This document shows, piece after piece, positions 31,724 through 54,892 of a stretch of DNA of 64,000 bases. The stretch comes from Antrihabitans cavernicola (GTDB lineage Bacteria; Actinomycetota; Actinomycetes; Mycobacteriales; Mycobacteriaceae). Each line of letters begins with the position of its first letter. Position 1 is the first letter of the stretch. A model generated the notes under the pieces. It saw only the letters and a list, made by a program, of their open reading frames with translations, did no database searches and was not told the origin of the DNA. The position numbers were made by a program, and so were the translations under genes. The DNA lies in contig NZ_VLNY01000001.1 of NCBI RefSeq assembly GCF_008297975.1, forward strand, positions 620,001-684,000, in the 5' to 3' direction.

Positions 31724-33939
31724 TCCTTCGCGGTCGACAAGGCCGATGGCCACCAGATCTTCTTGCCGATGTCATGCGAGAGGGCCGGTACCAGGATGCT
31801 GCGAACCAGAATCGTGTCCAGCAGCACGCCGAACGCGACCGCGAAGCCGATCTCGGCAAGGAACACCAGCGGGATCACCGTGAGCACGGCAAAGGTTGCC
31901 GCCAGCACGATGCCCGCCGAGGTGATCACGCCGCCGGTCACGGACAGTCCACGTCGAATGCCCTCGCGGGTGCCGAATTCCAGAGACTCCTCGCGCACCC
32001 GGGTCATCAGGAAGATGTTGTAGTCGATACCCAGCGCGACCAGGAACACGAACGCGAACAGCGGGAACGACTGGTCGGCGCCCGCGAAGTGGAAGATGTG
32101 CTCGAACGCGAACGCGCTGACACCCAGAGTCGCGCCGAAGGACAGCACCACCGACGCGATCAGCAGCACCGGCGCCAGCAGCGACCGGAGCAGCAGCGCA
32201 AGCACCACGAAGATCACCGCAAGCACGATCGGAATGATCAGGTTGCGGTCGTGTACGGCGGCCTGCTGCACGTCCAGGGTGGAGGCGGTGCTCCCGCCGA
32301 TCATCACGTCCGCGTTCGGGATCGCGTGCAAGGCAGATCGCAGCCGCTTCACGGTGTCGATGGCGGCGGGCGAATCGTAGGAGTCCACCAGGTTGGCGTT
32401 GACCACGGTACGACCGTCGATCGGCTCCACCTGCAGGGCAGCCGGCGGACACGCAGCAGCCGCAGGAGCACCACCGCCACCTGACTGTCCCGCCAGCGCT
32501 GTCACCTTGGCGATGTCGACCTGCACGCAGACCGATCCCGGTTTCTGCGCAACGCCCTCGATACTCGACGCCCTTTTGATCACCTCGTCCGCGGCGGCGG
32601 CGTTGGTGACGATGACGGCGGGCGCGCCTGCCCCCTTGTCGAACTTGGCGTCGTAGAGCCGTTGCCCCACAACGGCATCCGGGTTGGTGGTGAAGCTGTC
32701 CTGCACGGTGAGACCGCTGGTGTTCAGCATCGTGACGCCCAGGACGCAGAACAGCAGAATGACCGTCGCCCCGATCCACGCGGGCCGACGCCGCCCGACC
32801 ACCGTGCCCGCGATCCGACCCCACAACCCGTGCGTCGAAATGTCGGATTGATGATCGGTTCGCGGCCGACGCGGCCAGAACACCCAGCGCCCCGCCAACG
32901 CGAGCGCCACCGGCAGGAACGTCATCATCACAAGAACGGTGCAGGCGATGCCGATGGCCGCGACCGGACCGAGGCCCTTGTTGGAGTTGAGCTCGGAAAA
33001 CGTCAGACACAACAGACCTGCGATGACGGTGGCGGCAGACGCGAAAATCGCCGCAGCCGATTCCTTCCACGCGGTGATCATGGCGTCGAATCGGTTGTCG
33101 TACTCGTGCAGTTCTTCCCGATACCGAGAGGTCAACAACAGCGCGTAATCGGTTCCCGCGCCGAGCACAAGGACCGACAGAATGCCCTGACTCTGCCCGT
33201 TCAACGTGATCACATCGTGTTTGGCGAGGTAGTAGATCACCAGTGACGCGATGCCGAGCGCCAGCACGTCGGCGAGGATCGGGAAGATCCACAACACCGG
33301 CGATCGATACACGAACAGCAAGATCACAATCACGACGATCAGCGCCGACCCCAACAGTGCGCCGTCGAGGCCGTTGAACGAATCGATGAACGCCACCAGC
33401 AGACCGCCCGGGCCGGCCGGAAGCACCTCGAGCCCGTCGGCAGTCGCCGCTTGACGAGCCGCGTCGACCACGTTCTGCTCGTTCGTCGACAGATCCTGAC
33501 CGTTGACCGTGACACCGTTGTCCTTGGCGACCAGCGGAACGAAAAGCGATGCCGTAGTGGCGTCGTCGGAGAACTGTGCAGGCAGCAGACCCTGCTTGTC
33601 GACGCCCGGAACAGCAGCGACCGCAGCACGGGCCTTCTCGATACGGCCCTTGTCGTCGGCCGTCAGCCCGGAATCACGATGGAAGACAACGAAGCCGGGA
33701 ATGCTCTCGATCTTCAGGAACTTCGCGGACTCGTCGCTGGCCTTGGTGGACTCCGCGGACCCGGGAAGAAACGATGCGTTGTCGTTCTTCTGAACCTCGC
33801 CGAGCTTGCCCTGATAGGAACCACCGAAGCCGCCCGCGAGAAAAGCCATGATGGCGACGGCAATGATGGCGAACACGGGCCACCCACGCGCAACACGCCT
33901 GGCCGTCGGCTTCTGCTGGATTTCGGCCTTGTCGCCCAT
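31720..33939 (-). CDS. MmpL/RND-family transporter
   Basis: 739 residues from the ATG at 33939, with GGGGGAA upstream. Two halves, each one membrane segment, a porter domain, and five further segments. Motifs: VLGAGTDYALLLTSRYREEL in the first half and ALGIDYNIFLMTRVREES in the second, with the Asp-Tyr pairs that carry protons in MmpL proteins. The short porter domains with few Cys match the small MmpL class (as in MmpL11- or YdfJ-like proteins). Such proteins export lipids, siderophores or lipopeptides. It is divergent from the peptide synthetase, with 265 bp between starts, making it a candidate exporter of the product. Confidence 0.9.
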   Translation of the reverse strand: MGDKAEIQQKPTARRVARGWPVFAIIAVAIMAFLAGGFGGSYQGKLGEVQKNDNASFLPGSAESTKASDESAKFLKIESIPGFVVFHRDSGLTADDKGRIEKARAAVAAVPGVDKQGLLPAQFSDDATTASLFVPLVAKDNGVTVNGQDLSTNEQNVVDAARQAATADGLEVLPAGPGGLLVAFIDSFNGLDGALLGSALIVVIVILLFVYRSPVLWIFPILADVLALGIASLVIYYLAKHDVITLNGQSQGILSVLVLGAGTDYALLLTSRYREELHEYDNRFDAMITAWKESAAAIFASAATVIAGLLCLTFSELNSNKGLGPVAAIGIACTVLVMMTFLPVALALAGRWVFWPRRPRTDHQSDISTHGLWGRIAGTVVGRRRPAWIGATVILLFCVLGVTMLNTSGLTVQDSFTTNPDAVVGQRLYDAKFDKGAGAPAVIVTNAAAADEVIKRASSIEGVAQKPGSVCVQVDIAKVTALAGQSGGGGAPAAAACPPAALQVEPIDGRTVVNANLVDSYDSPAAIDTVKRLRSALHAIPNADVMIGGSTASTLDVQQAAVHDRNLIIPIVLAVIFVVLALLLRSLLAPVLLIASVVLSFGATLGVSAFAFEHIFHFAGADQSFPLFAFVFLVALGIDYNIFLMTRVREESLEFGTREGIRRGLSVTGGVITSAGIVLAATFAVLTVIPLVFLAEIGFAVAFGVLLDTILVRSILVPALSHDIGKKIWWPSALSTAKD

Positions 33940-33961
33940 CCGATTCCCCCGGGATTCACAC

Positions 33962-33973
33962 GCACGGTCGTTT
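33962..33973. promoter_or_regulatory. Third GAACG-like operator, before the MmpL gene
   Basis: GCACGGTCGTTT matches the site GAACGGTCGTTC (30668-30679) at 10 of 12 positions, including the whole core ACGGTCGTT. It lies 23 bp upstream of the MmpL start. It may place the transporter under the nearby TetR regulator. Confidence 0.35.
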
Positions 33974-34204
33974 CGCCAACAGTATCGACAAGGACCGACA
34001 AAAGGGGATGATGAGGAACGATGTCGTGCCGGACGGGCCACTGCGCGTGGTTAGCCAAGACGATGCCAACGGCCTGTGACGGTGCGCACTGGTTAATGAT
34101 GGGCATCGAAGAACCGATAACGTGAACGCGTCGAAACGGCTGTTCCGGCCCTGAGCCGACGCCGGGCCGATCGACTTCGGCACACCGACGAGAAGGACGA
34201 CTGC

Positions 34205-37200
34205 ATGGGCGAGGCCACCGGCGCGGAAGTGCCGTCGGCGCGAACCCGCCGTCGACCACGCACTCGACCCGCCGCCGGGAGAAGCGGTGGGACGCTGGCC
34301 GCGCTGTTGACCACCGCGGTCGAGCGCAACCCCGATGCCGTCGCGCTGATTTTCGGCAGCACTCGGATCACGTATCGCGAACTGGACGAGCGGTCCTCGC
34401 GGATGGCACGGCTGCTGATCACTGCGGGCGCCGGACCAGAATCAGCGATCGCGGTGGCCATCGATCGGTCCGTCGAATCGGTTCTCGCGGTGTGGTCCAT
34501 CGCCAAGACCGGTGCCGCATTTGTCCCTATCGACCCACATCATCCGCAGTCTTGGATCGAATTCCAGGTTGCAGACGCGGACATAGAACTCGGCGTGACG
34601 ATCGGCGAAACGGCCGAGTCGCTTCCGGCCTGGGTGCGCTGGCTCGAGATCGATTCGCCCGCGGTGGCGGCCCAACTCGCCAACCTATCGGCAGAGCCGG
34701 TCAGCTACGCCGACCGAACCTTCCCATTGCGCGCAGAGAATCCGGCTTACCTCTTCTACACCTCCGGCTCCACCGGCACCCCCCGCGGCGTGGTCGTCAC
34801 GAATACCGGACTAGCCGCACTTGCAGACGAGGTCAACGACCGCTACGGCGTCACGCCCGAATCGCGGATTCTGCACTCGTCGGCACCCACCTTCGACGCC
34901 GCGGTACTCGAGCTGTTGCTCGCCGTCCGCGCAGGCTCCACGCTGGTGATCGCACGGCCGGGGATCGACACCGCAGCCACGATAGCGAGAATGTTGCGGA
35001 GAGAGCGTGTCACCCACGCCTTCGCGACGCCGTCAGCGCTTGCGACCCTGTCGCCCGATGAGGTACCGGACGAGCTGCAGGTCCTGATCGTCGGCGGCGA
35101 AGTTTGCACACCGGCTCTGCTGGAACGCTGGTCGGCGCCGGGCCGCACGGTTTTCAACGCGTACGGCCCCACCGAAGCGACGGTCGTATCGCACGCAAGC
35201 AGCGCACTGGCGGTCGGCGATCCGGTGACCATCGGGCCGCCGATCCGCGGAGTCCAGGCCTACGTGCTCGATGCCCGCATGCACCTGGTGCCGGTCGGTG
35301 TGGCAGGCGAGCTGTACCTGGCGGGGCCCGCGGTGGCACGCGGCTATCGGAACGGTTCCACCACCGCGCAGCGCTTCGTCGCAGATCCGTTCGCCGCCGA
35401 CGGATCGCGCATGTACCGCACCGGCGACCTGGTGCGCGCTGCTGGAACGGACTCGGGCGCTGTCGAATTCGTCGGCCGCACCGACCGACAGATCAAAGTC
35501 GACGGCGTTCGGATCGAGGGCGGCGAGATCGATGCCGTCCTCGCCGACCATCCCGATGTTCTGCAGTGCGTGACGGTCGGGCGCGACGGCGAATCGGGCA
35601 CCACCGAGCTCGTGTCCTACGTGGTTGCCGCGTCCGGTCACATCCCCAGCTACGACGACCTCGCCGAGCACATCGCACACCAACTACCGCGCTACATGGT
35701 GCCGACGTCGATCACGACGGTCGACGAGCTCCCACAGACCGATTCGGGCAAGGTGGATGTCGCGGCGCTGAGCGAACCCGCGACCGCCGTTGCGGAGTAC
35801 CGCGCACCCACCCGATCCACCGAAGAAGTGGTGGCATCGGTCTTCGCCGAGGTACTGCGGCTCGAGCGCGTCGGGGCGGACGACGACTTCTTCGAACTCG
35901 GCGGTAACTCTCTGATAGCCACGCACCTGTTGGCGAGGTTGAGCACCGCACTGGACGCGCGCATCCCCACCCGAACGGTATTCGAGAACTCCACGGTTGC
36001 CGCGTTGGCGCGCGCGGCGGAGGCGCATCGCGGCGAGGGAGCGAGCCCAGCGCTGGTCGCGCGTCCACGCATGCAGCGCGTCCCCGTGTCGTACGCCCAA
36101 CGACGGTACTGGTTCCTCAATCAGTTCGACACGTCGTCGGCTGCCGACAACATCCCGGTGGCTCTTCGCCTGACCGGCGATCTGGATGTCGTTGCACTGC
36201 AGGCAGCGATCGTCGACGTGGTGACCCGACACGAGAGTCTGCGCACCGTCTACCCGTCGGATCAAGACGGCCCGCACCAGGTGGTGCTCGCACCCGGTCG
36301 CGCGGATGTTGCGTTGTCGCCCATCACGATCGACGAAGACGACGTTCTGCCTCGCGTCCTCGAGGTGGCGCTGCACACCTTCGACGTCTCGGTGGAGCCG
36401 CCGCTGCGGGTTCGGCTCTTCCGCACTCCGACCGATCACGTCCTTGCATTCGTCGTCCACCACATCTCCGCCGACGGATCGTCCACCGTTCCGTTCGCAC
36501 GAGATCTGGTGGGCGCGTACAGCGCTCGTGCCCAGCGCCGCTCCCCCGACTGGAGCCCGCTCGAGGTGCAGTACTCCGACTACACACTCTGGCAACGCGC
36601 GGTTCTCGGCGCCGATGACGATCCACAGTCGGTAGCTGCTCGCCAGATCGCCTACTGGACACAACAGTTGGCGGGGATGCCCGAGCAACTGGAGTTGCCG
36701 ACAGATCGCCCGCGCCCCGCAGTGCAGTCGTTCGGCGGCTCGGCAATCGCGTTCACGCTGCAACCGTCGGTGCATCGCGATCTGCTCGCGCTGGGAAAGG
36801 CCAACGGCGCAACGCTGTTCATGGTGATGCAGGCCGCGCTCACGGTGCTCCTCGCTCGAACGGCAGGGACGGACGACGTGGCCGTCGGCACACCGATCGC
36901 CGGTCGCGGCGAACCGGCACTCGACGATCTGATCGGCATGTTCGTCAACACCCTGGTCTTCCGCACCCGTGTCGACGGCAGCGCCTCGTTCACCGAACTG
37001 CTTGCCCAGGTGCGCGAAACCGACCTACAAGGGTTCGCCAACGCGGATGTGCCGTTCGAGCGGCTTGTCGAAGCGATCAACCCGACTCGCTCCGTTGCCC
37101 GAAACCCGCTGTTCCAGATCGGCTTTGCGTTCCAGAACTTCTCGACAGCCAAGCTCGAGCTGCCCGGACTGGCCGTAGAGATGGTCGAGTTCGATTCCCG

Positions 37201-40200
37201 ACTGGCAAAGACCGACCTCCATGTCGGCGTCTACGACAACCACGACGCCGATGGAGCGCCCGGCACCATCGAGATCGAATTCGGCTACGTCACAGCACTG
37301 TTCGACGAGTCGACGATGCAAGGCCTGGCGCGCCGCTACCAGCAGATCCTGGGTGCGGTCATCGCGCACGCAGAACAACCTGTCGGCGATATTCCGTTGC
37401 TGGACGATTCGGAGCGCGCTGCCGTCACCGCGCTGTCCGCCGGACCGGACTGTGTGGTTGCTGCCCACACGCTGGTGGAGTTGTTCGACGCCCAAGTGGC
37501 TGCCGATCCCGGTGCGCTCGCTGTCGTCGCAGGAGCCGACCGACTCAGTTACGCCGAGTTCGATGCTCGCGTGAATCAGTTGGCTCGCTACCTGATCTCG
37601 GCGGGTGTCGGTCCGGAAACCATTGTCGCACTGTCGATGCGCCGTTCACTCGACCAGCTGGTGACGATGTACGCCATCGTCAAGGCCGGTGGGGCGTATC
37701 TGCCGATCGATCCTGACCAACCACAAGATCGCACCGACTACATTCTCGACGCGGCAGATCCGCGGCTGGTGCTGACCGGACTCGACACCCTCGATCTTGC
37801 GGGTTTCTCGACAGCGCCGGTGACCGACCGCGATCGGACGATTCCACTCGGCCCCGACCACGCCGCCTACGTGATCTTCACGTCCGGTTCCACCGGAACA
37901 CCGAAGGGTGTGGTGGTACCGCATCGTGCCATCGTCAACCAGCTCGTCTGGAAGACAACGGAATTCGGATTGAGTGCGGAAGACATCGTCGCGATCAAGA
38001 CGCCTGCCACCTTCGACCTGTCGGTCTGGGAGTACTGGTCGGCGTTGCTCTCCGGCGGCAGCGTGGTGCTGGCATCGCCGACCGGACACCGTGACGTCGA
38101 CTATTTGCTGCGCCTGCTCGCAGACCATTCGGTGACCACGCTGCACGTGGTGCCGACGCTGTTGGACGCACTGGAGACGGGGTCCGATGTGGCACTGCCC
38201 GCATCGTTGCGCCGCGTGCTGGCGATCGGCGAGGCGCTGCCCAGTGCTGTCGCCGCGAAGTTCCGCGGCTGGAACGATGCCGATCTCTTCAACGTCTACG
38301 GTCCGACCGAGGCCGCGGTGTCCATCACCGCACAGCAGGTGACGGCAACGTCCGATGCGGTCGTCCCGATCGGCACGCCCGAGTGGAACAGCCAGGTCTT
38401 CGTGCTCGACGAGCGGCTGCACGCGGTCCCCACGGGTGTCGTCGGCGAGATATACCTGGCAGGCGTGCAGCTGGCTCGCGGCTACATCGGACGCGTCGAC
38501 TTGACGTCGGATCGGTTCGTGGCCAACCCGTTCGGCGCGCCGGGTGCGCGAATGTATCGAACCGGTGATCTCGCGAAATGGCATTCCGGTGCACTCGAGT
38601 ATCTGGGTCGCACCGACTTCCAGGTGAAGGTCCGTGGCTTCCGCATCGAGCTCGGTGAGGTCGAGGCGGTCCTGGCGGGAAACCCTGCGGTCGCGGCGGC
38701 CGTGGCCGTTGCGCAAAAGGATGTCTCGAGCGGCGATCGGCTGATCGCGTACGTGACGACGTTGCCGGGCCAGACCGTCACCACCGGCGCGTTGCAGGAC
38801 ACAGCGCGCGCAGGCCTCCCGTCGTACATGGTGCCCGCGGCGTTTGTGATCCTCGACGAGTTCCCACTCGGGGTGAACGGCAAGGTGGATCGAAAAGCAC
38901 TGCCGGAGCCGGTCTTCGAGCCGCGGACGTACCGTTCGCCGAGCACACCCATCGAGCAGGTGGTCGCGAACAGCTACGGTGACGTGCTCGGGATCGGGCG
39001 CGTCGGTCTCGATGACGACTTCTTCGCGCTCGGTGGGAACTCGTTGATCGCGACCCAGGTGGTGACCCGAATCGGCCGGGCGCTCGACACTCGCGTCACG
39101 GTGCGAATGTTGTTCGAGGCGCCCACCGTCGGCTCGCTCGCGGTCCGCGTCGAGCAACATGCCGGGACCGACGGCAGACCGCCCCTGGTGGCGGGGCGAC
39201 GACCCGACGTGCTACCGCTTTCGCTTGCCCAGCAACGGATGTGGTTTCTCAACAGGTTCGATTCGGGCTCGGCCGCATACAACATGCCCAGTGCTGTCCG
39301 GTTGAGCGGCGAGCTGAATCTGCCTGCACTGCAGGCGGCGATCCAAGACGTACTCGCACGCCATGAGTCCTTGCGAACCGTCTACCCGGAGACTCCGGAC
39401 GGTCCGGTGCAGGTGATCGTACCGATTGCCGAGGCCGAGCTCACGGTGCCCGTGACCACGGTCGCAGAAGACCAGGTGATCCCGCGGGTGGCGGCGTTGG
39501 CAGCGACATTGTTCGATGTCACCGCCGAAATACCTCTTCGCGCAGAGATTTTCGCTATATCGGCCACCGATCACGTGCTGGCGGTGGTGATCCACCACAT
39601 CTCGGCCGATGGCTCGTCGGTCGGACCACTGACCCGCGACATCATGCTCGCGTACACCGCGCGATCGATCGACGAGGCACCCACCTGGGCGCCGCTGCCC
39701 GTCCAGTATGCCGACTTCGCTCTCTGGCAGCGCCGCGTCCTCGGCGCGGACGACGACCCGGGATCGCTGACGTCGCAACAAATTGCCTACTGGAGCGACG
39801 CTCTGGCCGACTTGCCTGCGCAGATCGAGCTACCCATCGACAGACCGCGCCCTGCCACCGCGTCCTTTGCCGGCAACACCGAAAACGTCACGATCGACGA
39901 CTCCACCCATAGGGCTCTGGTCGACCTCGCACGTGAGCGTGGCGTGACGCTGTTCATGGTGATACACACCGCATTTGCGGTGTTGATCGCCCGGCTGTCC
40001 GGTTCGGACGACATCGCGATCGGCACCCCCATCGCCGGTCGTGGCGAGCGCGAACTCGACGATCTGATCGGCATGTTCGTCAACACGCTCGTGCTTCGGA
40101 CCCAACTCGATCGTGGCGCCCCGTTCATCGACGTGCTCGACCGGCAGCGCGATGTGAACCTCAATGCCTATGCCAATGCGGATATTCCGTTCGAGCAACT

Positions 40201-43200
40201 GGTCGAGGTACTCAATCCCGATCGCTCGACCGCCGCCCACCCCCTGTTTCAGGTCGGCCTCTCGTTCCAGAACCTGGCACCGGTGACGCTCGAGCTGCCC
40301 GGTCTGACCATCGGCGGCATTCCGATCGAGACCACTGTGTCGCAGTTCGACCTGCAACTCACCGTCGCCGACCGATACGACGACGACGGTGAGCCCGCCG
40401 GCATCGCGACCGTGTTCACGTATGCAACCGATCTTTTCGATGCCGCGACGGTCGCGGATATCGCTGCGCGGTTCCATCGGCTGCTGCGCTCGGTTGCCGC
40501 CGAGCCGAAGGAGCGGGTCGGTGAACTGGACATCGCCATCGCCGAAGACATCGGCGCGGCTGCGGCGTTCGACGACACCGAGCGCGCTGTCGACGGCGCT
40601 GCGACCCTGCCCGCGATGTTCGACGCACAGGTCGCTGCATCTCCGGACGCTGTGGCCGTCGTCGCGGACCACGAGTGGCTGTCGTACCGCGCCGTAGACT
40701 CACGCGCAAATCGCCTGGCGCGGTGGCTGATCCGCAAGGGCGTAGGCCCTGACGTGACAGTCGCACTCGCGATCGAGAGGTCCATCGATCTCGTCGTCGC
40801 AGTCCATGCCGTAGCCAAGGCGGGCGGGACCTACCTCCCCATCGATCCCGATCATCCGGCGGATCGGATCGACTACATTCTCTCCGTTGCACGCCCGAGT
40901 GTGGTGCTGGCGTCGTCGGCGACGGTTCTCGACGGGCGGGTGGGCGAGCGCGTCGACCTCGACACGCTCGATCTGTCGGAATTCGACGATGCCCCTGTCA
41001 CGGACGCCGAGCGAGCCGGCACGCTGAACGCAGCTACCACCGCATATCTGATCTTCACGTCGGGCTCGACAGGGCGACCCAAGGGTGTTGCGATCAGTTA
41101 CGGCGCTATCGCCAACCAGCTTTCCTGGCACCGAACAGAATTCGGGATGAGCACGACGGACGTCGGCGTGCTCAAGACCTCCGCGACCTTCGACCTGTCG
41201 ATCTGGGAGTTGTGGTCTTCGCTGATCAGCGGTGGTCGACTTGTCGTCGCGGCACCGGACCGTCAGGGCGATCCGCACTACCTCGACACCCTGATGCGCG
41301 AGCACGACGTGAGCGTGTTGCACGTGGTTCCGTCCATGCTCGACGCGATGCTGGCCGACGCAGGCGGGGTGCTCGCGCCGTCGCTGCGTGCGGTGCTCAC
41401 GGGCGGTGAACCGCTTGGGCCTGCGACCGCCCGGACGTTCCTCGACGGGAACGCCGTGGAGTTGTTCAACGTGTACGGCCCTACCGAGACGGCGATCTCG
41501 GCAACCTGGCATCGGGTGCGCACCGATATCGTCGGCTCGGTCCCGATCGGCGCACCTGTGTGGAATACCCAAGTCTGGGTGCTGGATTCGCGGTTGCGTC
41601 GCGTGCCTGTCGGCGTCACCGGCGAGGTGTACATCGGCGGCGTTCAGCTTGCTCGCGGCTACGCGCATCGAGCCGGTCTCACCGCCGAACGGTTCGTGGC
41701 GAATCCGTTCGGGCCACCGGGCACCCGGATGTATCGAAGCGGCGATCTCGCAGCACAGCGCAACGGCGTCCTCGAGTACCGCGGTCGATCCGACCTGCAG
41801 GTGAAGGTGCGCGGCTTCCGCATCGAATTGGGCGAGATCGAATCTGTCCTGACCGCTTTGCCGTCGGTGTCACGGGCAGCGGTGATCGCCCGCGCCGACG
41901 CATACGGCGACCAGTATCTGGCGGCCTATGTCGTTGCGGCGCAGGGCAGCACCGCCACCACCGACGATCTGCGGAAGACGCTCCGAGCAACGCTCCCCGC
42001 CTACATGGTGCCGAACGCGGTACTGATGCTGGATGCGCTGCCGTTCACCAGCAGCGGCAAGCTCGACCGAAAGGCGTTGCCGGAGCCGCAGATCGAGCTG
42101 AAGACGTTCCGGTCGCCGACCAACCCGGTGGAGGAGATCGTCGCAGACGTCTACCGTTCGGTGCTCGATCTCGACCGAGTGGGACTCGACGACGACTTCT
42201 TCGATCTCGGCGGCAACTCGTTGGTCGCGACACGGGTGGTTGCCCGTATCGGCCACGCACTCGACACCGTCGTCTCGGTTCGCACGCTCTTCGAGGCTCC
42301 CACGGTTGCGGCACTGGCCGCGCGGGTGGAAAGCCATGCCGGTGCCGGCGGCACGATCCCGCTCACAGCTGGGCGCCGACCCGAATACATACCGCTGTCG
42401 CTTGCTCAACAACGCATGTGGTTTCTGAATCGTTTCGACACCGCATCGGCCGCGTACACCGTGCCCATCGCGGTGCGGTTGACCGGCGACCTCGACGTTG
42501 CCGCGTTGCGCGCGGCAATCCACGACGTGATCGTCCGACACGAGGTGCTTCGCACCGTCTACCCGGAGCGATCAGGGGGTCCGGTTCAGCAGATCGAGTC
42601 GGTCGACCAGGCGTGTGCCCCGCTGCCACTGACGCCGACTGGTGCGGACGAGATCCAGTCGCGCATCCGTGCGATGACGTCGTCGGGCTTCGACGTGACC
42701 ACCGAAATACCCTTGCGCGCCGAACTGTTCGAGATCTCCAGCACCGATCACGTACTGGCCGTGGCCGTTCACCACATCGCGGCCGACGGTTCGTCGATCG
42801 GCCCGCTGACGCGCGACCTCATGCTCGCGTACGCGGCCCGCGTTGCGGAACACGCCCCCGACTGGACTCCGCTGCCGGTCCAGTACGCCGATTACGCTCT
42901 CTGGCAGCGTCGCGTGCTCGGCTCGGCCGACGATCCGGCGTCGTTGATGTCCCGGCAACTCGCGTTTTGGACGAAGTCGCTCGCGGACCTGCCGCGTCTG
43001 CTCGAGCTACCGATGGACAATCCGCGGCCCGCCGTGCAGTCGACCGCCGGCAGCGCTATCGACCTGCATATAGCTGCGGACACCCACCAGGCCCTCGTCG
43101 ACCTCGCCCGCAGCAGCGGGGCAACGCTGTTCATGGTGATGCATACCGCGCTCGCGGTGCTGCTTGCCAAGCTGTCCGGTACCGACGACATTGCGATCGG

Positions 43201-46200
43201 GACGCCTATCGCAGGCCGGGGGGAACGCGAACTCGACGATCTGATCGGCATGTTCGTCAACACTCTCGTGCTTCGAACCCACGTCGACGGAAACGCGTCG
43301 TTCGTCGACCTGCTCGCCCGCCAACGCGAGATCGACCTGCTCGCATTCTCTAACGCGCACATACCGTTCGAGCAATTGGTGGAGGTGATCGACCCCGACC
43401 GATCGGCGGCGGCCAATCCCCTCTTCCAGGTCGCACTGGCGTTCCAGAACCTTGGGCACACCACCCTCGGACTGCCGGGTCTGACGGTTGCCGCTGTCCC
43501 GTTCGACACCCAGGTCTCCCAATTCGATCTGTTGCTGACGCTGACCGATCAGTATTCCGAGGACGGCGTTCCAGCGGGCATAGCCGGCGTATTGGGTTAC
43601 GCAACGGACCTTTTCGAACGCCGGACCGTGCAGGAGTTCACCGCCTACTTCGGCAGGCTGCTGGCATCGCTGGTCGCCGACCCACGCCTGCCGGTCGGCG
43701 ACGTCACACTCGCACCGATCGCCGATCAGCTGCCACAGCGCAGTGCGGAGCCTGCGGTACTCCCGGCCGCACTGCTCGATGCTCGAGTTGCTGCGAGCCC
43801 GGACGCGACCGCGATTCGCATGGCATCGGAGACGCTGACGTACCGCGAATTCGACTCGCGGGCAAACACGCTCGCCCGACGACTGATCGCACGCGGGGTG
43901 GGCCCGGAGAGCTTGGTCGCTGTGGCGCTGCACCGCTCGATCGAGCTGGTGGTGGCGATCCATGCCATCGCGAAGACCGGCGGCGCGTACGTCCCGATCG
44001 ATCCCGACCATCCCGCCGACCGCTCCGCGTATGTGCTGACCACCGCGCAACCGGCGCTGATACTGACCACCACCTCGGTGAGGAACGTTCGCGACACGTC
44101 GTTCGATCTGATCGATCTCGACGAGCCGCCGCTAGACGATGTCGACGACACACCGGTCACCGACGGCGATCGGCTCGGCATCCTTCGCCCGGGCAACACC
44201 GCGTACGTCCTTTTCACCTCCGGCTCCACCGGGCGCCCCAAGGGTGTCGCGGTGAGCCATGGCGCTGTCGGGCGCCAGTTGGTCTGGCACACAAACGAGT
44301 TCGCAGCCACCGCCGAGGATGTCGGATTGTTCAAGACATCGCCGACGTTCGATCTGTCCGTGTGGGAACTGTGGTCGTCGTTGATCACCGGCGGCACCCT
44401 CGTCATTGCCGCGCCGGACGGTCAGCGCGATCCCCGCTATCTCGACAACCTGATGCGCGATACGGGCATCACGGTGTTGCACGTGGTCCCGTCGATGCTC
44501 GACGCACTGCTGACCGAGAGCGGCGGCGTACTCGCGCCCTCCCTGCGGACGGTGGTGACTGCAGGCGAAACATTCCCTGCCACAACTGTTAGCGCCTTCC
44601 TAGCAGGCAATGCGGCCGCGCTGTACAACGTCTACGGCCCCACCGAGGCCGCGGTGTCGGCGACAGCGCACCGGGTCGCGTCGGTGGGTTCGGGCGCGGT
44701 GCCGATCGGATATGCCGAACGCTACGTCACCGTGCACGTGCTCGACCGCCGGTTGCATCCGGTTCCGCCGGGTGTGGCAGGCGAAATCTATCTGTCCGGT
44801 GAGCAGTTGGCGCGGGGCTATCACGCCCGACCGGAACTGACCGCAGATCGTTTCGTGGCCAGCCCATTCGGCCCTGCGGGATCCCGGCTCTATCGCACCG
44901 GTGACGTTGCGGTACAACGCGACGGCCTGCTCGAGTATCGGGGTCGCTCCGACTTCCAGGTGAAGGTCCGCGGCTTCCGTATCGAGCCGGGTGAGGTGGA
45001 GGCCGCCCTCGTCGCACATCCATCGGTGGGGCAGGCCGTCGTGGTAGCTCGCACCGATCCGCACGGTGACGCTCGACTGGCCGGCTACGTCGTTCCCGCA
45101 CTATCGAGGTTCGTCGACACCGACCGCGTCCGTCAGGACGTCGCTACGGCGCTGCCGCCGTACATGGTGCCGTCGTCGTTGACGGTGCTGTCCGCACTGC
45201 CCCGCACCACCAGCGGCAAGGTGGATCGAAAGTCGTTGCCGGAACCGGTCTTCGAAGTTCGGTCCTTCCGCGCGCCGACCAATCCGATCGAGGAGACGGT
45301 GGCTTCGGTATTCGGCGAACTGTTGGGTATCGACCGGGTCGGTTTGGACGACGACTTCTTCGCCTTGGGCGGCAACTCGTTGTCTGCCACGCGAGCGGTG
45401 TCGCGAATCGGTGCCGCACTCGACACCACCGTGGCAGTGCGCACGTTGTTCGAGGCATCCACTGTCGCGACTCTCGCTGCGCGCGTTGGCAAACCGAATG
45501 GCGAGCAACGGCCCGCACTCGTGGGCGGTGCCCGGACCGAGCCCATTCCGCTGTCGCTCGCGCAGCAGCGGCTGTGGATTCTCAATCAGTTCGACACGGC
45601 GTCCACCGCGTACAACGTGCCGGTGGCGCTGCGGCTGCACGGCAGGCTTAACGTGGCGGCTCTGACCGCTGCCATCCACGACGTGATCGCGCGTCACGAG
45701 GTGCTTCGCACCTATTACCCGGAAACCACCGACGGTCCGGCGCAGGTCATCGAGTCGGCAAGCGCCGTCGGCACCGACATCCCCGTCATCGATGTCGACG
45801 AGTCCGAAATCGCCGACCGTGTACGAGGTTTCATCGGAACCACGTTCGACGTCGCCGCGGAGGTTCCACTCCGTATCGCCGTCTATCGCATCCGCGCGGA
45901 CGACTACGTGCTCGCACTGGTGACGCATCACATCGCTGCCGACGGTTCCTCCATCGCGCCGATGACCCGTGACGTCATGCTTGCCTACGGGGCGCGGATC
46001 GCGGACGCCGCACCGGGATGGACGCCGTTGGCGGTCCAGTACGCCGACTTCACCCTGTGGCAGCGGACGGTGCTCGGGTCCGACGACGATCCGGAATCGC
46101 TGGCAGCTCAGCAGATCTCCTACTGGCAGTCCGCGCTGGCAGGCCTGCCGGACGAGCTGAACCTGCCCTACGACCGGCCACGCCCGGCCATGCAGTCGTT

Positions 46201-49200
46201 TGCGGGCGAGCACATCGATTTCCGGATCGGAGCCGACACCCATCGCGCGCTGTCTGCGGTCGCACGCGGCAACGGTGCAACGCTGTTCATGGTGATGCAC
46301 ACCGCGCTCGCCGTTCTGCTTGCTCGGACGTCCAGCAGCGACGACATCGCGATCGGTACTCCGGTCGCGGGTCGCGGTGACCGTGCCCTCGACGACCTGA
46401 TCGGCATGTTCGTCAACACCCTCGTACTGCGGAGCACGGTCGATGTCAACGAGTCGTTCACCGACCTGCTCGCGCGTCAACGCGAGACCGCGCTCGAGGC
46501 ATTCACCAACGCGGACATACCGTTCGAGCGGTTGGTCGAGGTGCTCAATCCGGTCCGATCGACCGGCCGCCACCCGCTCTTCCAGGTCGGTATGGCATTC
46601 CAGAATCTGGAGCACTCGTCACTCGAACTGCCAGATCTGACCCTGACGAGCTTCGACTTCGACGCCGGCATCGCCAAGTACGACCTCGATCTCACCCTGA
46701 CCGATCACTACGGTGCCGACGGCGAACCGCTGGGCATCACCGGCGCTCTCACCTACGCCACCGACCTGTTCGACGAGTCGACCGCCCAATCGCTGATACA
46801 CCGATTCGAGCGCATCGCAGACTCCGTTGCAGCACAACCGGGCTCCGCTGTCGGTGACATCGATCTCGTCGCAGCCAACGAGCGCGCCGTATCGGCAAGG
46901 CGCAACACCACCGATCACGACGGGTTCGGATGGGACCTCACCATCGCATTCGCGGCACAGGTGGCGAAGACGCCCGACGCCGTTGCGGTGATCGCCGACG
47001 ACACGCGCATGACCTACGCAGAGCTGGATACCCGAGCAAATCGGTTGGCGCGCTGGCTGATCGACCACGGTATCGGCGGCGAGCGCGCCGTCGCTGTTGC
47101 AATCCGAAGAACGGGAGATCTGGTGGTGGCGTTGCACGCCGTCGCCAAGGCCGGCGGCATCTACGTGCCTGTCGATCCCGACCATCCCGAGGACCGGATC
47201 CGCTACGTCCTCGACATCGTTGCGCCCGACGTCGTGCTGACCGTCTCCGACGTCGGTTTCACCACCACGGCCGCAACAGCCATCGACACCCTCGACCTCT
47301 CGTCGTATTCGGCGCAACCCGTGGTGGATTCGGAGTTGTCGGCACCGCGCCTGCCGAGCAACGCCGCTTACATCACGTTCACCTCTGGATCGACCGGGCG
47401 GCCCAAGGGCGTGACCAATACCTTCGAGGGGATCGCAACGCACAGCGCGTGGATGCAGGCGGAGTACGCATTCGGTGCGGACGACGTGTACCTGCAGAAG
47501 ACCGCACCCACCTTCGACGTCTCCCTGTGGGGCTACTGGCTGCCGCTGCTCACCGGTTCCCATGTGGTGCTGGCGAAACCGGACGGCCACCTCGACCCGG
47601 CGTACATCGCAGCGCAGATCGCGGACCACTCGGTGACGATCACCGACTTCGTGCCGTCACCGCTGTCGGTCTTCGTGGAGGTCGCGACGGCCGAACAACT
47701 CGTGTCGTTGCGCGATGTCATCGTCATCGGCGAGATCCTGTCCCCTGCGCTGGTCCGCGCGTTTGCCGAGTTGTCGAGCGCGCGCGTGCACAACCTGTAC
47801 GGTCCCACCGAGGCGGCGATCGCCACCACCGCCCACACCGTCACGGGTGCCGAGCCAGGCCCGATCCCCATCGGCTTGCCCATGTGGAATACCCAGGTGT
47901 ACGTGCTGGATTCGCGCCTGCGGCAGGTTCCCGACGGCGTGTCGGGCGAGCTGTATCTGGGTGGTCTTCAGTTGGCCCGCGGCTATCGCAATCGCCCCGA
48001 TCTGACCGCGGACCGGTTCATCGCGAACCCCCTCGGTACCTCCGGCAGCAGGCTCTACCGCACCGGCGACGAAGTCCGCTGGGTCGGTGGCGAACTCGAC
48101 TACATCGGGCGCACCGATCAGCAGGTGAAACTGCGCGGGCAACGCATCGAGTTGGGCGAGATCGCCGCGGCGTTGAAGCTCGACCCGACGGTGCGCCACG
48201 CGGCAGCCAACGTCTTCACCACCGGCACCGATCAACACCTGATCGGCTATGTGACCGCATGCGACGGTGCCGTCGTCGACACCGATGTGGTGCGCGATCG
48301 CATGCGACTCACTTTGCCGCATTACATGATCCCCGCTCAGGTGATCCTCCTCGATGCCTTGCCCGCCACGTCGACCGGAAAGTTGGATCGCAAAGCGTTG
48401 CCCGATCCGCTCTTCACCGCTGCCGCGTTCCGTGCTCCGAGCACGCGCGAGCAAAAGATCGTGGCCGAGGCTTTCGCCGATGTCCTCGGCATCGACCGAG
48501 TCGGAGTCGACGACGACTTCTTCGAGCTCGGCGGCACGTCGTTGTTGGCGTTCACGTTGCGCAGCGAGCTGTCGGCGAGATTGGGTGTCGATGTGCCGGC
48601 CGCGGTGATTCTGCGATCGCCGTCGGTGCGGCGGCTCGCCGATCTAGGCAGCGCCGTTGATCCAGGCAGCACCGTTGATCTAGGCAGCACCGACGAGGCA
48701 GCCGAATCCGACGTGGACCGGATGATCGCCGACTCGCACCTGACCATCGACTTGACCGGCGTAGCACCGGCCCGAGTCGGACCGCCGCGGCACGTATTGC
48801 TCACCGGTGCAACGGGATTCCTCGGCGCATACCTGCTACGCGCGCTGCTGGACGCCACCGACGCAGACGTGTGGTGCCTGGTCCGTGCGGACGACGTCGA
48901 GTCGGCGCGACGACGCATCCGCGAGAATCTCGAAACCTACGCCCTGTGGGATCACGCGCTCGAGCACCGAATCGTCTTGCTACCGGGCGATCTCGCCGCG
49001 GCGTCGCTGGGACTCTCGGACGCCGAGTTCGGCCGAGTTGCCGAAGAGGTCGATCTGATCGTCCACAACGGTGCCCGGGTGAACCACCTGGACCCGTACG
49101 AGCGGCTTCGAGCGGCGAACGTCGCAGGCACCGTGGAGGTGTTGCGGCTCGCGGCGACGACAAGGATCAAACCTGTCCATTTCGTGTCGACCAGCTCCGC

Positions 49201-49906
49201 AGCCGTTCGCGCGGACCAGGCGGCGTCCGACATCGTCACGGAAACAACGGAACTCGCCGCCGATGCCGTTGCCGCCAACGGCTACGTCCAGAGCAAGTGG
49301 GTCGGCGAGCAACTCGTTCGTAGCGCGGGGACTCGCGGTCTCCCGGTCGCCATACACCGACCAGGTCTGATCTCCGGCGATCGTCGCAGCGGTGTGATGA
49401 GCGCCGACGATTCGTTCTGGAATATGATCCGCGCCGTTGCCATTCTCGGTATGGCTCCCGATGTCGGCAGTGCGGCAATCGAATTGGTGCCCGTCGACTA
49501 TGTCGCACGGGCAATCGTCGAGATTGCGAGCCTGCCGAGGGACGAGCTGGTGTATCACCTGGTGAACACGCGACCCGTCCCGGTCGAGGACATCTTCGCG
49601 GTACTCGCGACCCGCGGACTGCCGATCCACACAGCCACCCTGGATGAGGTCGGTGCTGCTCTGGCTCGCGAGGCCGAGCTCCGCAACGCCGAGGGCGACG
49701 ACTCGCTCGTGCGCGCGGCGTTGCTGAGCGGCAACTACGCCGCCGAACGGACCGCGCTGCAGTGGGACGACGCGCATACCCGATCCGCCCTGGCAGGCAC
49801 GGACATCGAATGCCCTGTCGTCGACAAATCGCTCATCGAGATCTACATCGACGCGTTCGTCGAATCCGGTTTCCTACCTGGGCCTTCCGGCGATCGTTCG
49901 CGTTGA
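34205..49906 (+). CDS. Five-module non-ribosomal peptide synthetase with terminal reductase domain
   Basis: 5233 residues; AAGGA precedes the ATG. Order: A1 (about 29-520), T1 (Ser569), C1 (624-1062, HHISADG from 752), A2 (1084-1569), T2 (Ser1613), C2 (1668-2110, HH 1797), A3 (2132-2626), T3 (Ser2672), C3 (2725-3170, HH 2856), A4 (3187-3677), T4 (Ser3725), C4 (3778-4222, HH 3908), A5 (4242-4729), T5 (Ser4779), R (4860-5229). All four C domains keep HHxxxDG; all T domains keep GG(N/T)S. The R domain has GATGFLG (4868) and Tyr5027-Lys5031 and should release the peptide as an aldehyde or alcohol using NAD(P)H. There is no starter C domain, epimerase, methyltransferase or thioesterase. Pocket residues read by eye: A1 DALFIGAVVK (aliphatic), A2 DLWHLIVVSK, A3 DLWHLGVISK, A4 DLWHVAVVSK, A5 DVWDIILIAK; none of the last four matches a code I know. 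Confidence 0.95.
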   Translation: MGEATGAEVPSARTRRRPRTRPAAGRSGGTLAALLTTAVERNPDAVALIFGSTRITYRELDERSSRMARLLITAGAGPESAIAVAIDRSVESVLAVWSIAKTGAAFVPIDPHHPQSWIEFQVADADIELGVTIGETAESLPAWVRWLEIDSPAVAAQLANLSAEPVSYADRTFPLRAENPAYLFYTSGSTGTPRGVVVTNTGLAALADEVNDRYGVTPESRILHSSAPTFDAAVLELLLAVRAGSTLVIARPGIDTAATIARMLRRERVTHAFATPSALATLSPDEVPDELQVLIVGGEVCTPALLERWSAPGRTVFNAYGPTEATVVSHASSALAVGDPVTIGPPIRGVQAYVLDARMHLVPVGVAGELYLAGPAVARGYRNGSTTAQRFVADPFAADGSRMYRTGDLVRAAGTDSGAVEFVGRTDRQIKVDGVRIEGGEIDAVLADHPDVLQCVTVGRDGESGTTELVSYVVAASGHIPSYDDLAEHIAHQLPRYMVPTSITTVDELPQTDSGKVDVAALSEPATAVAEYRAPTRSTEEVVASVFAEVLRLERVGADDDFFELGGNSLIATHLLARLSTALDARIPTRTVFENSTVAALARAAEAHRGEGASPALVARPRMQRVPVSYAQRRYWFLNQFDTSSAADNIPVALRLTGDLDVVALQAAIVDVVTRHESLRTVYPSDQDGPHQVVLAPGRADVALSPITIDEDDVLPRVLEVALHTFDVSVEPPLRVRLFRTPTDHVLAFVVHHISADGSSTVPFARDLVGAYSARAQRRSPDWSPLEVQYSDYTLWQRAVLGADDDPQSVAARQIAYWTQQLAGMPEQLELPTDRPRPAVQSFGGSAIAFTLQPSVHRDLLALGKANGATLFMVMQAALTVLLARTAGTDDVAVGTPIAGRGEPALDDLIGMFVNTLVFRTRVDGSASFTELLAQVRETDLQGFANADVPFERLVEAINPTRSVARNPLFQIGFAFQNFSTAKLELPGLAVEMVEFDSRLAKTDLHVGVYDNHDADGAPGTIEIEFGYVTALFDESTMQGLARRYQQILGAVIAHAEQPVGDIPLLDDSERAAVTALSAGPDCVVAAHTLVELFDAQVAADPGALAVVAGADRLSYAEFDARVNQLARYLISAGVGPETIVALSMRRSLDQLVTMYAIVKAGGAYLPIDPDQPQDRTDYILDAADPRLVLTGLDTLDLAGFSTAPVTDRDRTIPLGPDHAAYVIFTSGSTGTPKGVVVPHRAIVNQLVWKTTEFGLSAEDIVAIKTPATFDLSVWEYWSALLSGGSVVLASPTGHRDVDYLLRLLADHSVTTLHVVPTLLDALETGSDVALPASLRRVLAIGEALPSAVAAKFRGWNDADLFNVYGPTEAAVSITAQQVTATSDAVVPIGTPEWNSQVFVLDERLHAVPTGVVGEIYLAGVQLARGYIGRVDLTSDRFVANPFGAPGARMYRTGDLAKWHSGALEYLGRTDFQVKVRGFRIELGEVEAVLAGNPAVAAAVAVAQKDVSSGDRLIAYVTTLPGQTVTTGALQDTARAGLPSYMVPAAFVILDEFPLGVNGKVDRKALPEPVFEPRTYRSPSTPIEQVVANSYGDVLGIGRVGLDDDFFALGGNSLIATQVVTRIGRALDTRVTVRMLFEAPTVGSLAVRVEQHAGTDGRPPLVAGRRPDVLPLSLAQQRMWFLNRFDSGSAAYNMPSAVRLSGELNLPALQAAIQDVLARHESLRTVYPETPDGPVQVIVPIAEAELTVPVTTVAEDQVIPRVAALAATLFDVTAEIPLRAEIFAISATDHVLAVVIHHISADGSSVGPLTRDIMLAYTARSIDEAPTWAPLPVQYADFALWQRRVLGADDDPGSLTSQQIAYWSDALADLPAQIELPIDRPRPATASFAGNTENVTIDDSTHRALVDLARERGVTLFMVIHTAFAVLIARLSGSDDIAIGTPIAGRGERELDDLIGMFVNTLVLRTQLDRGAPFIDVLDRQRDVNLNAYANADIPFEQLVEVLNPDRSTAAHPLFQVGLSFQNLAPVTLELPGLTIGGIPIETTVSQFDLQLTVADRYDDDGEPAGIATVFTYATDLFDAATVADIAARFHRLLRSVAAEPKERVGELDIAIAEDIGAAAAFDDTERAVDGAATLPAMFDAQVAASPDAVAVVADHEWLSYRAVDSRANRLARWLIRKGVGPDVTVALAIERSIDLVVAVHAVAKAGGTYLPIDPDHPADRIDYILSVARPSVVLASSATVLDGRVGERVDLDTLDLSEFDDAPVTDAERAGTLNAATTAYLIFTSGSTGRPKGVAISYGAIANQLSWHRTEFGMSTTDVGVLKTSATFDLSIWELWSSLISGGRLVVAAPDRQGDPHYLDTLMREHDVSVLHVVPSMLDAMLADAGGVLAPSLRAVLTGGEPLGPATARTFLDGNAVELFNVYGPTETAISATWHRVRTDIVGSVPIGAPVWNTQVWVLDSRLRRVPVGVTGEVYIGGVQLARGYAHRAGLTAERFVANPFGPPGTRMYRSGDLAAQRNGVLEYRGRSDLQVKVRGFRIELGEIESVLTALPSVSRAAVIARADAYGDQYLAAYVVAAQGSTATTDDLRKTLRATLPAYMVPNAVLMLDALPFTSSGKLDRKALPEPQIELKTFRSPTNPVEEIVADVYRSVLDLDRVGLDDDFFDLGGNSLVATRVVARIGHALDTVVSVRTLFEAPTVAALAARVESHAGAGGTIPLTAGRRPEYIPLSLAQQRMWFLNRFDTASAAYTVPIAVRLTGDLDVAALRAAIHDVIVRHEVLRTVYPERSGGPVQQIESVDQACAPLPLTPTGADEIQSRIRAMTSSGFDVTTEIPLRAELFEISSTDHVLAVAVHHIAADGSSIGPLTRDLMLAYAARVAEHAPDWTPLPVQYADYALWQRRVLGSADDPASLMSRQLAFWTKSLADLPRLLELPMDNPRPAVQSTAGSAIDLHIAADTHQALVDLARSSGATLFMVMHTALAVLLAKLSGTDDIAIGTPIAGRGERELDDLIGMFVNTLVLRTHVDGNASFVDLLARQREIDLLAFSNAHIPFEQLVEVIDPDRSAAANPLFQVALAFQNLGHTTLGLPGLTVAAVPFDTQVSQFDLLLTLTDQYSEDGVPAGIAGVLGYATDLFERRTVQEFTAYFGRLLASLVADPRLPVGDVTLAPIADQLPQRSAEPAVLPAALLDARVAASPDATAIRMASETLTYREFDSRANTLARRLIARGVGPESLVAVALHRSIELVVAIHAIAKTGGAYVPIDPDHPADRSAYVLTTAQPALILTTTSVRNVRDTSFDLIDLDEPPLDDVDDTPVTDGDRLGILRPGNTAYVLFTSGSTGRPKGVAVSHGAVGRQLVWHTNEFAATAEDVGLFKTSPTFDLSVWELWSSLITGGTLVIAAPDGQRDPRYLDNLMRDTGITVLHVVPSMLDALLTESGGVLAPSLRTVVTAGETFPATTVSAFLAGNAAALYNVYGPTEAAVSATAHRVASVGSGAVPIGYAERYVTVHVLDRRLHPVPPGVAGEIYLSGEQLARGYHARPELTADRFVASPFGPAGSRLYRTGDVAVQRDGLLEYRGRSDFQVKVRGFRIEPGEVEAALVAHPSVGQAVVVARTDPHGDARLAGYVVPALSRFVDTDRVRQDVATALPPYMVPSSLTVLSALPRTTSGKVDRKSLPEPVFEVRSFRAPTNPIEETVASVFGELLGIDRVGLDDDFFALGGNSLSATRAVSRIGAALDTTVAVRTLFEASTVATLAARVGKPNGEQRPALVGGARTEPIPLSLAQQRLWILNQFDTASTAYNVPVALRLHGRLNVAALTAAIHDVIARHEVLRTYYPETTDGPAQVIESASAVGTDIPVIDVDESEIADRVRGFIGTTFDVAAEVPLRIAVYRIRADDYVLALVTHHIAADGSSIAPMTRDVMLAYGARIADAAPGWTPLAVQYADFTLWQRTVLGSDDDPESLAAQQISYWQSALAGLPDELNLPYDRPRPAMQSFAGEHIDFRIGADTHRALSAVARGNGATLFMVMHTALAVLLARTSSSDDIAIGTPVAGRGDRALDDLIGMFVNTLVLRSTVDVNESFTDLLARQRETALEAFTNADIPFERLVEVLNPVRSTGRHPLFQVGMAFQNLEHSSLELPDLTLTSFDFDAGIAKYDLDLTLTDHYGADGEPLGITGALTYATDLFDESTAQSLIHRFERIADSVAAQPGSAVGDIDLVAANERAVSARRNTTDHDGFGWDLTIAFAAQVAKTPDAVAVIADDTRMTYAELDTRANRLARWLIDHGIGGERAVAVAIRRTGDLVVALHAVAKAGGIYVPVDPDHPEDRIRYVLDIVAPDVVLTVSDVGFTTTAATAIDTLDLSSYSAQPVVDSELSAPRLPSNAAYITFTSGSTGRPKGVTNTFEGIATHSAWMQAEYAFGADDVYLQKTAPTFDVSLWGYWLPLLTGSHVVLAKPDGHLDPAYIAAQIADHSVTITDFVPSPLSVFVEVATAEQLVSLRDVIVIGEILSPALVRAFAELSSARVHNLYGPTEAAIATTAHTVTGAEPGPIPIGLPMWNTQVYVLDSRLRQVPDGVSGELYLGGLQLARGYRNRPDLTADRFIANPLGTSGSRLYRTGDEVRWVGGELDYIGRTDQQVKLRGQRIELGEIAAALKLDPTVRHAAANVFTTGTDQHLIGYVTACDGAVVDTDVVRDRMRLTLPHYMIPAQVILLDALPATSTGKLDRKALPDPLFTAAAFRAPSTREQKIVAEAFADVLGIDRVGVDDDFFELGGTSLLAFTLRSELSARLGVDVPAAVILRSPSVRRLADLGSAVDPGSTVDLGSTDEAAESDVDRMIADSHLTIDLTGVAPARVGPPRHVLLTGATGFLGAYLLRALLDATDADVWCLVRADDVESARRRIRENLETYALWDHALEHRIVLLPGDLAAASLGLSDAEFGRVAEEVDLIVHNGARVNHLDPYERLRAANVAGTVEVLRLAATTRIKPVHFVSTSSAAVRADQAASDIVTETTELAADAVAANGYVQSKWVGEQLVRSAGTRGLPVAIHRPGLISGDRRSGVMSADDSFWNMIRAVAILGMAPDVGSAAIELVPVDYVARAIVEIASLPRDELVYHLVNTRPVPVEDIFAVLATRGLPIHTATLDEVGAALAREAELRNAEGDDSLVRAALLSGNYAAERTALQWDDAHTRSALAGTDIECPVVDKSLIEIYIDAFVESGFLPGPSGDRSR
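48641..48694 (+). repeat. Three 18-bp tandem repeats in the T5-reductase linker
   Basis: GATCTAGGCAGCGCCGTT, GATCCAGGCAGCACCGTT and GATCTAGGCAGCACCGAC follow one another exactly, coding DLGSAV-DPGSTV-DLGSTD between the last carrier domain and the reductase domain. The unit is a multiple of three, so copy changes keep the frame. Confidence 0.85.
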
Positions 49907-49942: not shown

Positions 49943-50860
49943 ATGAAGGCATACGGATTCACGGAATACGGCAACTCCGACACGCAGGACTTTCTCGATC
50001 TCGACACACCGTCGCCCATGCCTGGCGAGCTGTTGATCGAGGTCAAGGCGTCGGGCGTCAATCCGGTCGACTGGAAGATCCGATCCGGTCACCTGCGCGA
50101 GTTCCAGGAACGCGACATGCCCGCCGTGCTCGGATCGGAGGTCTCGGGGGTGGTTCGCAAGGTCGGCCAGGATGTCGACGGCTTCACCGAGGGTGACGAG
50201 GTGTTCGGTACCGTCGCGCCGAACTCCGGCAGCTTCGCCGAGTACACACTGACACCGGCAACCGCCACCTCGCACAAGCCTGCCCACGTGTCGTTCACCG
50301 ACGCGTCGACCTTGGGCGTGGCCGGTGCAACCGCATACGACGGCGTCACCCAACTCGGCTTGCAGAAGGGCCAGACCCTGCTGATCAATGGCATCAGCGG
50401 TGGCGTCGGGGTGGCTGCAGCCCAGATCGCACGCGATCTCGGCATCAACGTGGTCGGCACGGCGAGCCCCGACAAGCAAGAACTGATCGAGTCCCTCGGT
50501 GCGATCTTGGTCCCGTACGGCGATGGCGTTGCCGACCGGATCAGGCAGATCATGCCGGATGGCGTCGACGCGATCTTCGACCTCGCAGGCGGCGACGGCT
50601 TGCGTGCCGTTGTCGAACTCCTCACCGACCGCACCAAGCTCATCACCGCAGCCGATCCGGGCACCGCGGAAGAACTCGGCGGTCACCAGATCGAACGCGA
50701 CCGGACCAGTCGCGTGCTGGACGCAGTCGCGTCCTTGGTCGCAGACGGCAAGCTCGACCCGCACGTCGAGGACATCATCGCGCTCGACGATGCACCCGAT
50801 GCACTCGCCGCAGTGGAGAAGGGTCATGCCAAGGGCAAGGTCGTGATTCAGGTCGGCTAG
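49943..50860 (+). CDS. Quinone-oxidoreductase-like medium-chain dehydrogenase
   Basis: 305 residues from the ATG at 49943, 36 nt after the synthetase and on the same strand. MDR fold: MKAYGFTEYGN, DWKIRSGHLREF, VLGSEVSGVVRKVGQDVDGFTEGDEVFG, and the cofactor site GISGGVGVAAAQIARDLGINVVGTAS. No structural or catalytic zinc Cys set is present, so it is of the zinc-independent quinone reductase class and uses NADPH. Co-transcription with the synthetase is plausible and it could modify the released product, but this family is also widespread as stand-alone genes. Its end overlaps the convergent permease gene by 4 nt. Confidence 0.9.
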   Translation: MKAYGFTEYGNSDTQDFLDLDTPSPMPGELLIEVKASGVNPVDWKIRSGHLREFQERDMPAVLGSEVSGVVRKVGQDVDGFTEGDEVFGTVAPNSGSFAEYTLTPATATSHKPAHVSFTDASTLGVAGATAYDGVTQLGLQKGQTLLINGISGGVGVAAAQIARDLGINVVGTASPDKQELIESLGAILVPYGDGVADRIRQIMPDGVDAIFDLAGGDGLRAVVELLTDRTKLITAADPGTAEELGGHQIERDRTSRVLDAVASLVADGKLDPHVEDIIALDDAPDALAAVEKGHAKGKVVIQVG

Positions 50861-52643: not shown

Positions 52644-52829
52644 ATGTCCCTCGTTCCGTGTGCGTCGACTGCAAGCGAGTATTGCGGAGCCCACCGACAA
52701 TGTCATCCTAATTGTCCGAATATGCAGGTGTCCGATTCGAGTAGTCCGCTACTCAAGCGCAGGTCACAGAGCGGTTCATCATCTTTCTCATCCGCGGAAC
52801 GCGGCGTTCGATCGAGAAAGAACAACACG

Positions 52830-54848: not shown

Positions 54849-54853
54849 GGACA

Positions 54854-54867: not shown

Positions 54868-54892
54868 CATAGCCGTCCGACACGGCTCCGTG

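Follow-up and report, generated by a model that had tools for sequence, protein, structure and literature searches.

What product is delivered by a non-ribosomal peptide synthetase (NRPS) that starts without a condensation domain and ends in a reductase domain, and which of its neighbours take part? The question is raised by a gene of Antrihabitans cavernicola within the 64 kb of DNA analysed here (the window, to which all positions refer). A preliminary description had read this gene as a five-module synthetase, a candidate for an uncharacterised linear pentapeptide aldehyde or alcohol. We propose that it encodes a self-contained modular NRPS that would release a pentapeptide aldehyde reductively, and on the basis of the sequence we give this reading a probability of about 0.75.

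Domain layout of the synthetase

The NRPS is encoded by a single intact open reading frame (34205–49906, forward strand, 5233 amino acids) that begins with ATG at 34205 and whose stop codon ends at 49906. Pfam, NCBIfam, motif searches and domain models derived from the protein's own sequence concur on the layout A-T-(C-A-T)x4-R in this one frame (A, adenylation; T, carrier; C, condensation; R, thioester reductase), which is far beyond chance and bears out the five modules proposed before. The Pfam scan, run on five overlapping pieces of the protein, found the families AMP-binding, AMP-binding_C, PP-binding and Condensation, ordered as expected, with NAD_binding_4 last; the last AMP-binding_C, the C-terminal subdomain of A5, scored 24.1 bits and thus fell slightly below the Pfam cut-off of 24.5. 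No stops, frameshifts or lost motifs were found across the 5233 codons.

Module 1 comprises A1 (34313–35779) and T1 (35828–36022), both found with Pfam. It is followed by module 2 with C2 (36074–37423, also found with Pfam), A2 (37487–38911) and T2 (38960–39154), by module 3 with C3 (39206–40546), A3 (40622–42088) and T3 (42137–42331), by module 4 with C4 (42386–43732), A4 (43778–45247) and T4 (45296–45487), and by module 5 with C5 (45545–46891), A5 (46955–48409) and T5 (48458–48649), where C domains are numbered by their module. From A2 onwards, these domains were placed with the domain models. The R domain occupies 48782–49903. In the motif search, the carrier motif DFFxLGGxS was present in all five T domains and HHIxADG in all four C domains, in agreement with the intact carrier serines and four HHxxxDG motifs described earlier. 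Furthermore, the spacing from T to A is 483–490 amino acids at all four places, so that an epimerase domain would not fit, and the Pfam scan reported no thioesterase; the earlier statement that both domains are missing is thus upheld.

Start module and condensation domains

Both the reading frame and the domain models show that the NRPS opens with A1, as had been described, and its upstream neighbour lies in divergent orientation. This start is most simply read as leaving a free N-terminus: the lack of a first C domain stands as observed, whereas the free amine of the product would follow from that lack. Three other NRPS frames of the same genome open with A within about 55 residues (L118, L119 and L126). 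When R-bearing frames not truncated at the 5' end were compared (fetched loci, 30-bit cut-off, sample picked by R-domain similarity to the window NRPS), 19 of 20 opened with A; in this set, L136 and L068, which agree in contig and frame length, are probably one locus and L134, with a weak C-like stretch of 27 bits before A, is doubtful. A further 19 R-bearing frames are cut by the locus edge and are thus uninformative on the start. Starting with A and ending with R is therefore the usual plan among the relatives rather than an odd one. The preliminary description knew of no product of exactly this layout from Nocardiaceae. Among the matches listed in topical literature searches, no title names such a product from Nocardiaceae, which falls short of proving novelty.

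To classify the C domains, we inferred a tree from domains of the window, 13 further stretches of the same genome, four further genomes and 13 of the 31 Nocardia loci described below. Of 95 C domains cut, 10 without clear upstream context and one with odd spacing were dropped, which left 84; labels were assigned from spacing, with a T-to-A distance above 800 amino acids taken as epimerase plus DCL. The tree falls into three blocks: six starter rows, a block of 13 rows that holds all 11 rows labelled as following an epimerase together with one starter-labelled and one LCL-labelled row, and 65 LCL rows that include the four of the window. According to a warning of the tree program, the long starter and DCL branches meet; the window rows are unaffected by this. 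Since C2 to C5 all belong to the LCL clade, residues 1–4 should be in the L form at condensation, as judged from clade membership; residue 5 has no C domain downstream.

In the same tree, the C domain of the last module of R-terminated Nocardia NRPSs is sister to C3–C5 of the window. The first C domain of L126 (G000:C34), a 1956-amino-acid NRPS with the layout A-T-C-A-T and the codes DALFVGGIM and DLWHLILVS, pairs with C2 at 100/100, and L126 is possibly a relative of modules 1–2. In total, the genome (G000, 5.66 Mb) has 77 condensation-superfamily matches, a count that includes epimerase domains.

Adenylation domains and substrates

The specificity codes, motif-mapped from GrsA numbering, are DALFIGAVV for A1, DLWHLIVVS for A2, DLWHLGVIS for A3, DLWHVAVVS for A4 and DVWDIILIA for A5. 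Modules 2–4 thus share the code class DLWHxxVxS. A3 and A4 are 59% identical, and the nearest A domain to A2, also at 59%, belongs to another NRPS of its own genome and has the code DLWHLILVS. Three further NRPSs of the genome (L120, L121 and L126) show the class DLWHxILVS, and we know of no assigned substrate for codes of this type. A literature search that included the exact nine-letter codes and DLWHxxVxS found no paper.

For A1, a hydrophobic residue is suggested by the code with low confidence. The serine code is DVWHFSLVD, and by likeness to it one might guess at a small or polar substrate for the DLWH class. An alanine for A5, transferred from the terminal modules of the presumed Mps2 (L138), was considered and dropped because the codes differ (DVWCVAAVY and DVWYVAAIY in L138). 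The classes DLWHxxxVS and DVWDxILxx, for which the search likewise found no paper, recur in this genome and in its relatives, so that a single named product would decode many silent clusters.

Terminal reductase and its relatives

The R domain matches the NCBIfam thioester reductase model TIGR01746 with 336 bits (cut-off 213) over positions 1–371 of 371, and it carries GATGFLG at residue 4868 and YVQSKW, the YxxxK motif, at residue 5027. Both motifs named in the preliminary description were thus found. The nearest solved R domain is that of MxaA (4u7w, E 9.8e-85, full length), which is also a terminating R domain. In the alignment to MxaA, the nucleotide loop, YxxxK and the preceding Ser/Thr stretch are all aligned; the catalytic and nucleotide motifs are thus kept. 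The next structural matches are a type I polyketide synthase chain (8v1x, E 4.2e-63), the R domain of a Mycobacterium tuberculosis NRPS (4dqv, E 2.2e-36) and that of AusA (4f6c, E 9.3e-24). MxaA is a four-electron R enzyme and, as a difference from the NRPS studied here, belongs to a hybrid polyketide–peptide line.

At E ≤1e-60, an R domain was found in one of four species of the genus compared and, across the family, in at least 53 of 401 genomes, for which at most four candidates were scored per genome. A query with A1-T1 matched 302 of the 401 genomes (three candidates scored per genome); the best match outside the own genome had 55% identity, and no evident orthologue was found in this search. 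A pattern-based scan of named genomes yielded 31 R loci, all in Nocardia, with R domains 51–59% identical to the one in the window. These Nocardia NRPSs resemble the window NRPS in the A start and the T-R end. They differ in size, the complete examples having two (A-T-C-A-T-R) or four modules instead of five, and in their codes (DALFIGGIM and DVWDFILVS versus DLWHxxVxS). To our knowledge, none of their products has been described. L074, L075 and L076, from three further genomes, have no fewer than five T domains, four C domains and R last; their R domains are 48–49% identical, they have other codes, and their 5' ends are cut by contig ends that hide the true length.

Genomic neighbourhood

The NRPS is flanked by a divergent MmpL-family transporter gene (31720–34041, reverse strand; Pfam) on one side and, on the other, by genes for a DrrB-like ABC-2 permease (50857–51660, reverse strand) and a DrrA-like ABC ATPase (51657–52706, reverse strand), both identified with Pfam and NCBIfam. 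In all three congeners, which lack the NRPS, the MmpL gene (67–76% identical) adjoins DrrB-DrrA. The gap between MmpL and DrrB, measured on stretches without any N, is about 1.0 kb in G001, 0.17 kb in G002 and 0.86 kb in G003, compared to 16.8 kb in the window. MmpL and DrrAB also lie side by side in one genome of another genus (G046), with about 0.1 kb between them. We therefore reject the default view of MmpL and DrrAB as dedicated exporters; as gene order suggests, they are probably not dedicated to the NRPS. This empty-site comparison is a caution against counting MmpL or DrrAB neighbours into a cluster. In the nine other genomes listed with both R and MmpL matches, no pair of listed matches lay within 100 kb on one contig, the closest being 170 kb apart (G257).

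The gaps of the congeners are informative in themselves. In G002, 39 codons match residues 5192–5230, the end of R, with 49% identity (E 9.5e-8) and a stop at the end; the gap of G001 contains an A-domain fragment of 215 residues (E 8e-40, AMP-binding positions 1–238 of 384). In G003, the gap is occupied by a gene for an arylamine N-acetyltransferase (PF00797, E 1.7e-71) and shows no clear NRPS scrap (best E 0.08). The scraps indicate that an NRPS once stood there in two other species, R-terminated in one of them. However, Nocardia L053 is the closest match to the R tail of G002 (67%); the window NRPS, at 49%, ranks tenth among the 40 tails that matched out of 42, and the A fragment of G001 is nearest to another NRPS, L120 (42%). 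As neither scrap is a particularly close match to the window NRPS, both an ancestral locus and repeated occupation of the site are compatible with them. We also considered a recent foreign island, which is unsupported given a G+C of 0.62–0.68 over gene and flanks and the R-NRPS scrap in the same gap of G002.

A medium-chain oxidoreductase gene (quinone reductase or alcohol dehydrogenase-like; 49943–50860, forward strand; Pfam ADH_N and ADH_zinc_N) starts 36 bases past the NRPS stop. Its best NCBIfam model, PIG3 quinone reductase, scored 155 bits, below the cut-off of 297. A 71% relative is present elsewhere in G003, and the gap of G002 is too small for such a gene. As tblastn gave no matches at E 1e-15 in 38 R-NRPS loci (37 distinct), we reject the gene as a conserved partner of R-NRPSs; it is possible as a putative pathway partner in this locus. 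A promoter and terminator scan downstream of the NRPS found nothing.

No MbtH gene is present in the 64-kb window; the two of the genome are on other contigs. Ten kilobases downstream of the NRPS lies a gene for a 1074-amino-acid SARP/AfsR-like regulator with BTAD and NB-ARC-type regions (59812–63036, forward strand), possibly a candidate regulator of the NRPS. Between DrrA and a DNA polymerase IV gene is a frame of 281 amino acids (52788–53633, reverse strand) to which Pfam gave no match at E values up to 0.1; the corresponding interval in the congeners spans about 0.1 kb, and part of the frame has a 71% DNA match elsewhere in G003. The DNA polymerase IV frame (53649–55580, reverse strand) has about 240 residues before the match, which starts at residue 249–258 of 643; a later true start codon is the likeliest reading of this extra length. 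The window further contains a penicillin-binding protein and two Ser/Thr kinases, one with PASTA repeats (17820–22819, forward strand), which we take to be a conserved actinobacterial cell-division kinase locus.

Product and alternative readings

Domain order, intact motifs and LCL placement are properties of the sequence itself; substrate loading, colinearity and reductive release are inferred from family knowledge. On this reading, A1 would load the first, probably hydrophobic, amino acid onto T1, and the four LCL domains would append four L-activated residues in order, the middle three being of one substrate class. Using NAD(P)H, R would then reduce the thioester that holds the pentapeptide on T5 and release a chain that ends in a C-terminal aldehyde and whose N-terminal amine is free. 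R domains free their products as aldehydes or alcohols (PMC12783407). The earlier claim about release holds insofar as a reductive exit is the expected route; the sequence allows both aldehyde and alcohol, by two- and four-electron reduction respectively.

A second reduction by R would yield a linear pentapeptide alcohol, which we consider quite possible though short of an even chance. The closest solved R domain being that of a four-electron enzyme speaks for it, yet terminating R domains resemble MxaA in general. By analogy, the mycobacterial glycopeptidolipid, which ends in alaninol (PMC3537567), also points this way. A pentapeptide aldehyde, in turn, could be caught by its own N-terminal amine to form a five-residue macrocyclic imine, possibly reduced to the amine. 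As the NRPS lacks a starter C domain and none of the tested neighbours encodes a capping enzyme, a free amine is to be expected, and the oxidoreductase gene follows the NRPS closely. Nostocyclopeptides provide an analogy, as they close spontaneously onto an N-terminal Tyr following reductive release; however, they are heptapeptides with a D-residue and are mostly linear in cells (PMC7551626). In our judgement, a 15-atom all-L ring without Pro or a D-residue would be strained, and the oxidoreductase is not found beside other R-NRPSs, so that we regard the imine as somewhat unlikely. Its fully specified form, an all-L pentapeptide aldehyde with three adjacent residues of the same class that closes to the five-residue imine, which the adjacent oxidoreductase may reduce, is decidedly unlikely. 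We know of no example of this ring size among macrocyclic imines of this class. Of the earlier "linear pentapeptide aldehyde or alcohol", module count, order and reductive exit are thus retained, whereas "linear" is not, as the anatomy equally allows a cyclic imine.

The flanking MmpL and ABC genes could also suggest a peptide that is N-acylated in trans and exported as a lipopeptide by MmpL, and many rhodococcal NRPS clusters have been interpreted as lipopeptide clusters (PMC5550956). Against this stand the missing starter C domain, the lack of an acyl ligase among the tested neighbours and the conservation of the transporter genes in NRPS-less congeners, which make a lipopeptide highly improbable. 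Finally, the gene might be silent despite being intact, as the recent survivor of a locus under loss in the genus. The NRPS is present in one of four species of the genus compared, and the other three either lost it or were always without it, so that the gene may be dispensable or silent, and the scraps in two of three congener gaps fit such a history. Yet the frame is undamaged over its whole length and the scraps lack any specific closeness to it, and we think a silent survivor unlikely. The pentapeptide aldehyde remains our preferred product, and a single-protein assembly line with readable product logic is a good target for expression.

Comparison with known systems

In a survey of 28 strains, 79 NRPS families were found, 71 of them without known product, and the main text does not use the term "reductase" (PMC5550956). 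The preliminary description had likened the NRPS to the glycopeptidolipid and myxochelin synthetases. Mps1/Mps2 of mycobacterial glycopeptidolipid is likewise an actinobacterial NRPS with reductive release at its end, but it has D-residues, a lipid start and an MbtH gene in its cluster (PMC3537567). As the window NRPS has no epimerase domain, all C domains being LCL, no starter C domain, no MbtH gene beside it and different codes, the likeness holds for the reductive end and is otherwise weak. The second half of the protein, which includes the whole of module 5 and R, scored 1140.8 bits against a cut-off of 2300 for the myxochelin synthetase MxcG (NF038078), and the two halves scored 1491 and 1337.4 bits against a cut-off of 2500 for the aureusimine synthetase AusA (NF047350); neither model thus recognises it. 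The synthetases of antipain, chymostatin and omicsynin also make peptide aldehydes via a terminal R domain. However, their R domains have about 300 residues and are without the C-terminal helix-turn-helix, compared to 371 model positions covered here, and their products carry a ureido cap (PMC12783407). The nostocyclopeptide synthetase shares with the window NRPS the reductive release of a peptide aldehyde, the free N-terminal amine expected here and a first module without starter C domain; it differs in having seven residues, an epimerase and two proteins (PMC7551626). The NRPS of the window is thus an intact member of the known class of R-terminated NRPSs, whose machinery is not new and whose product may be.
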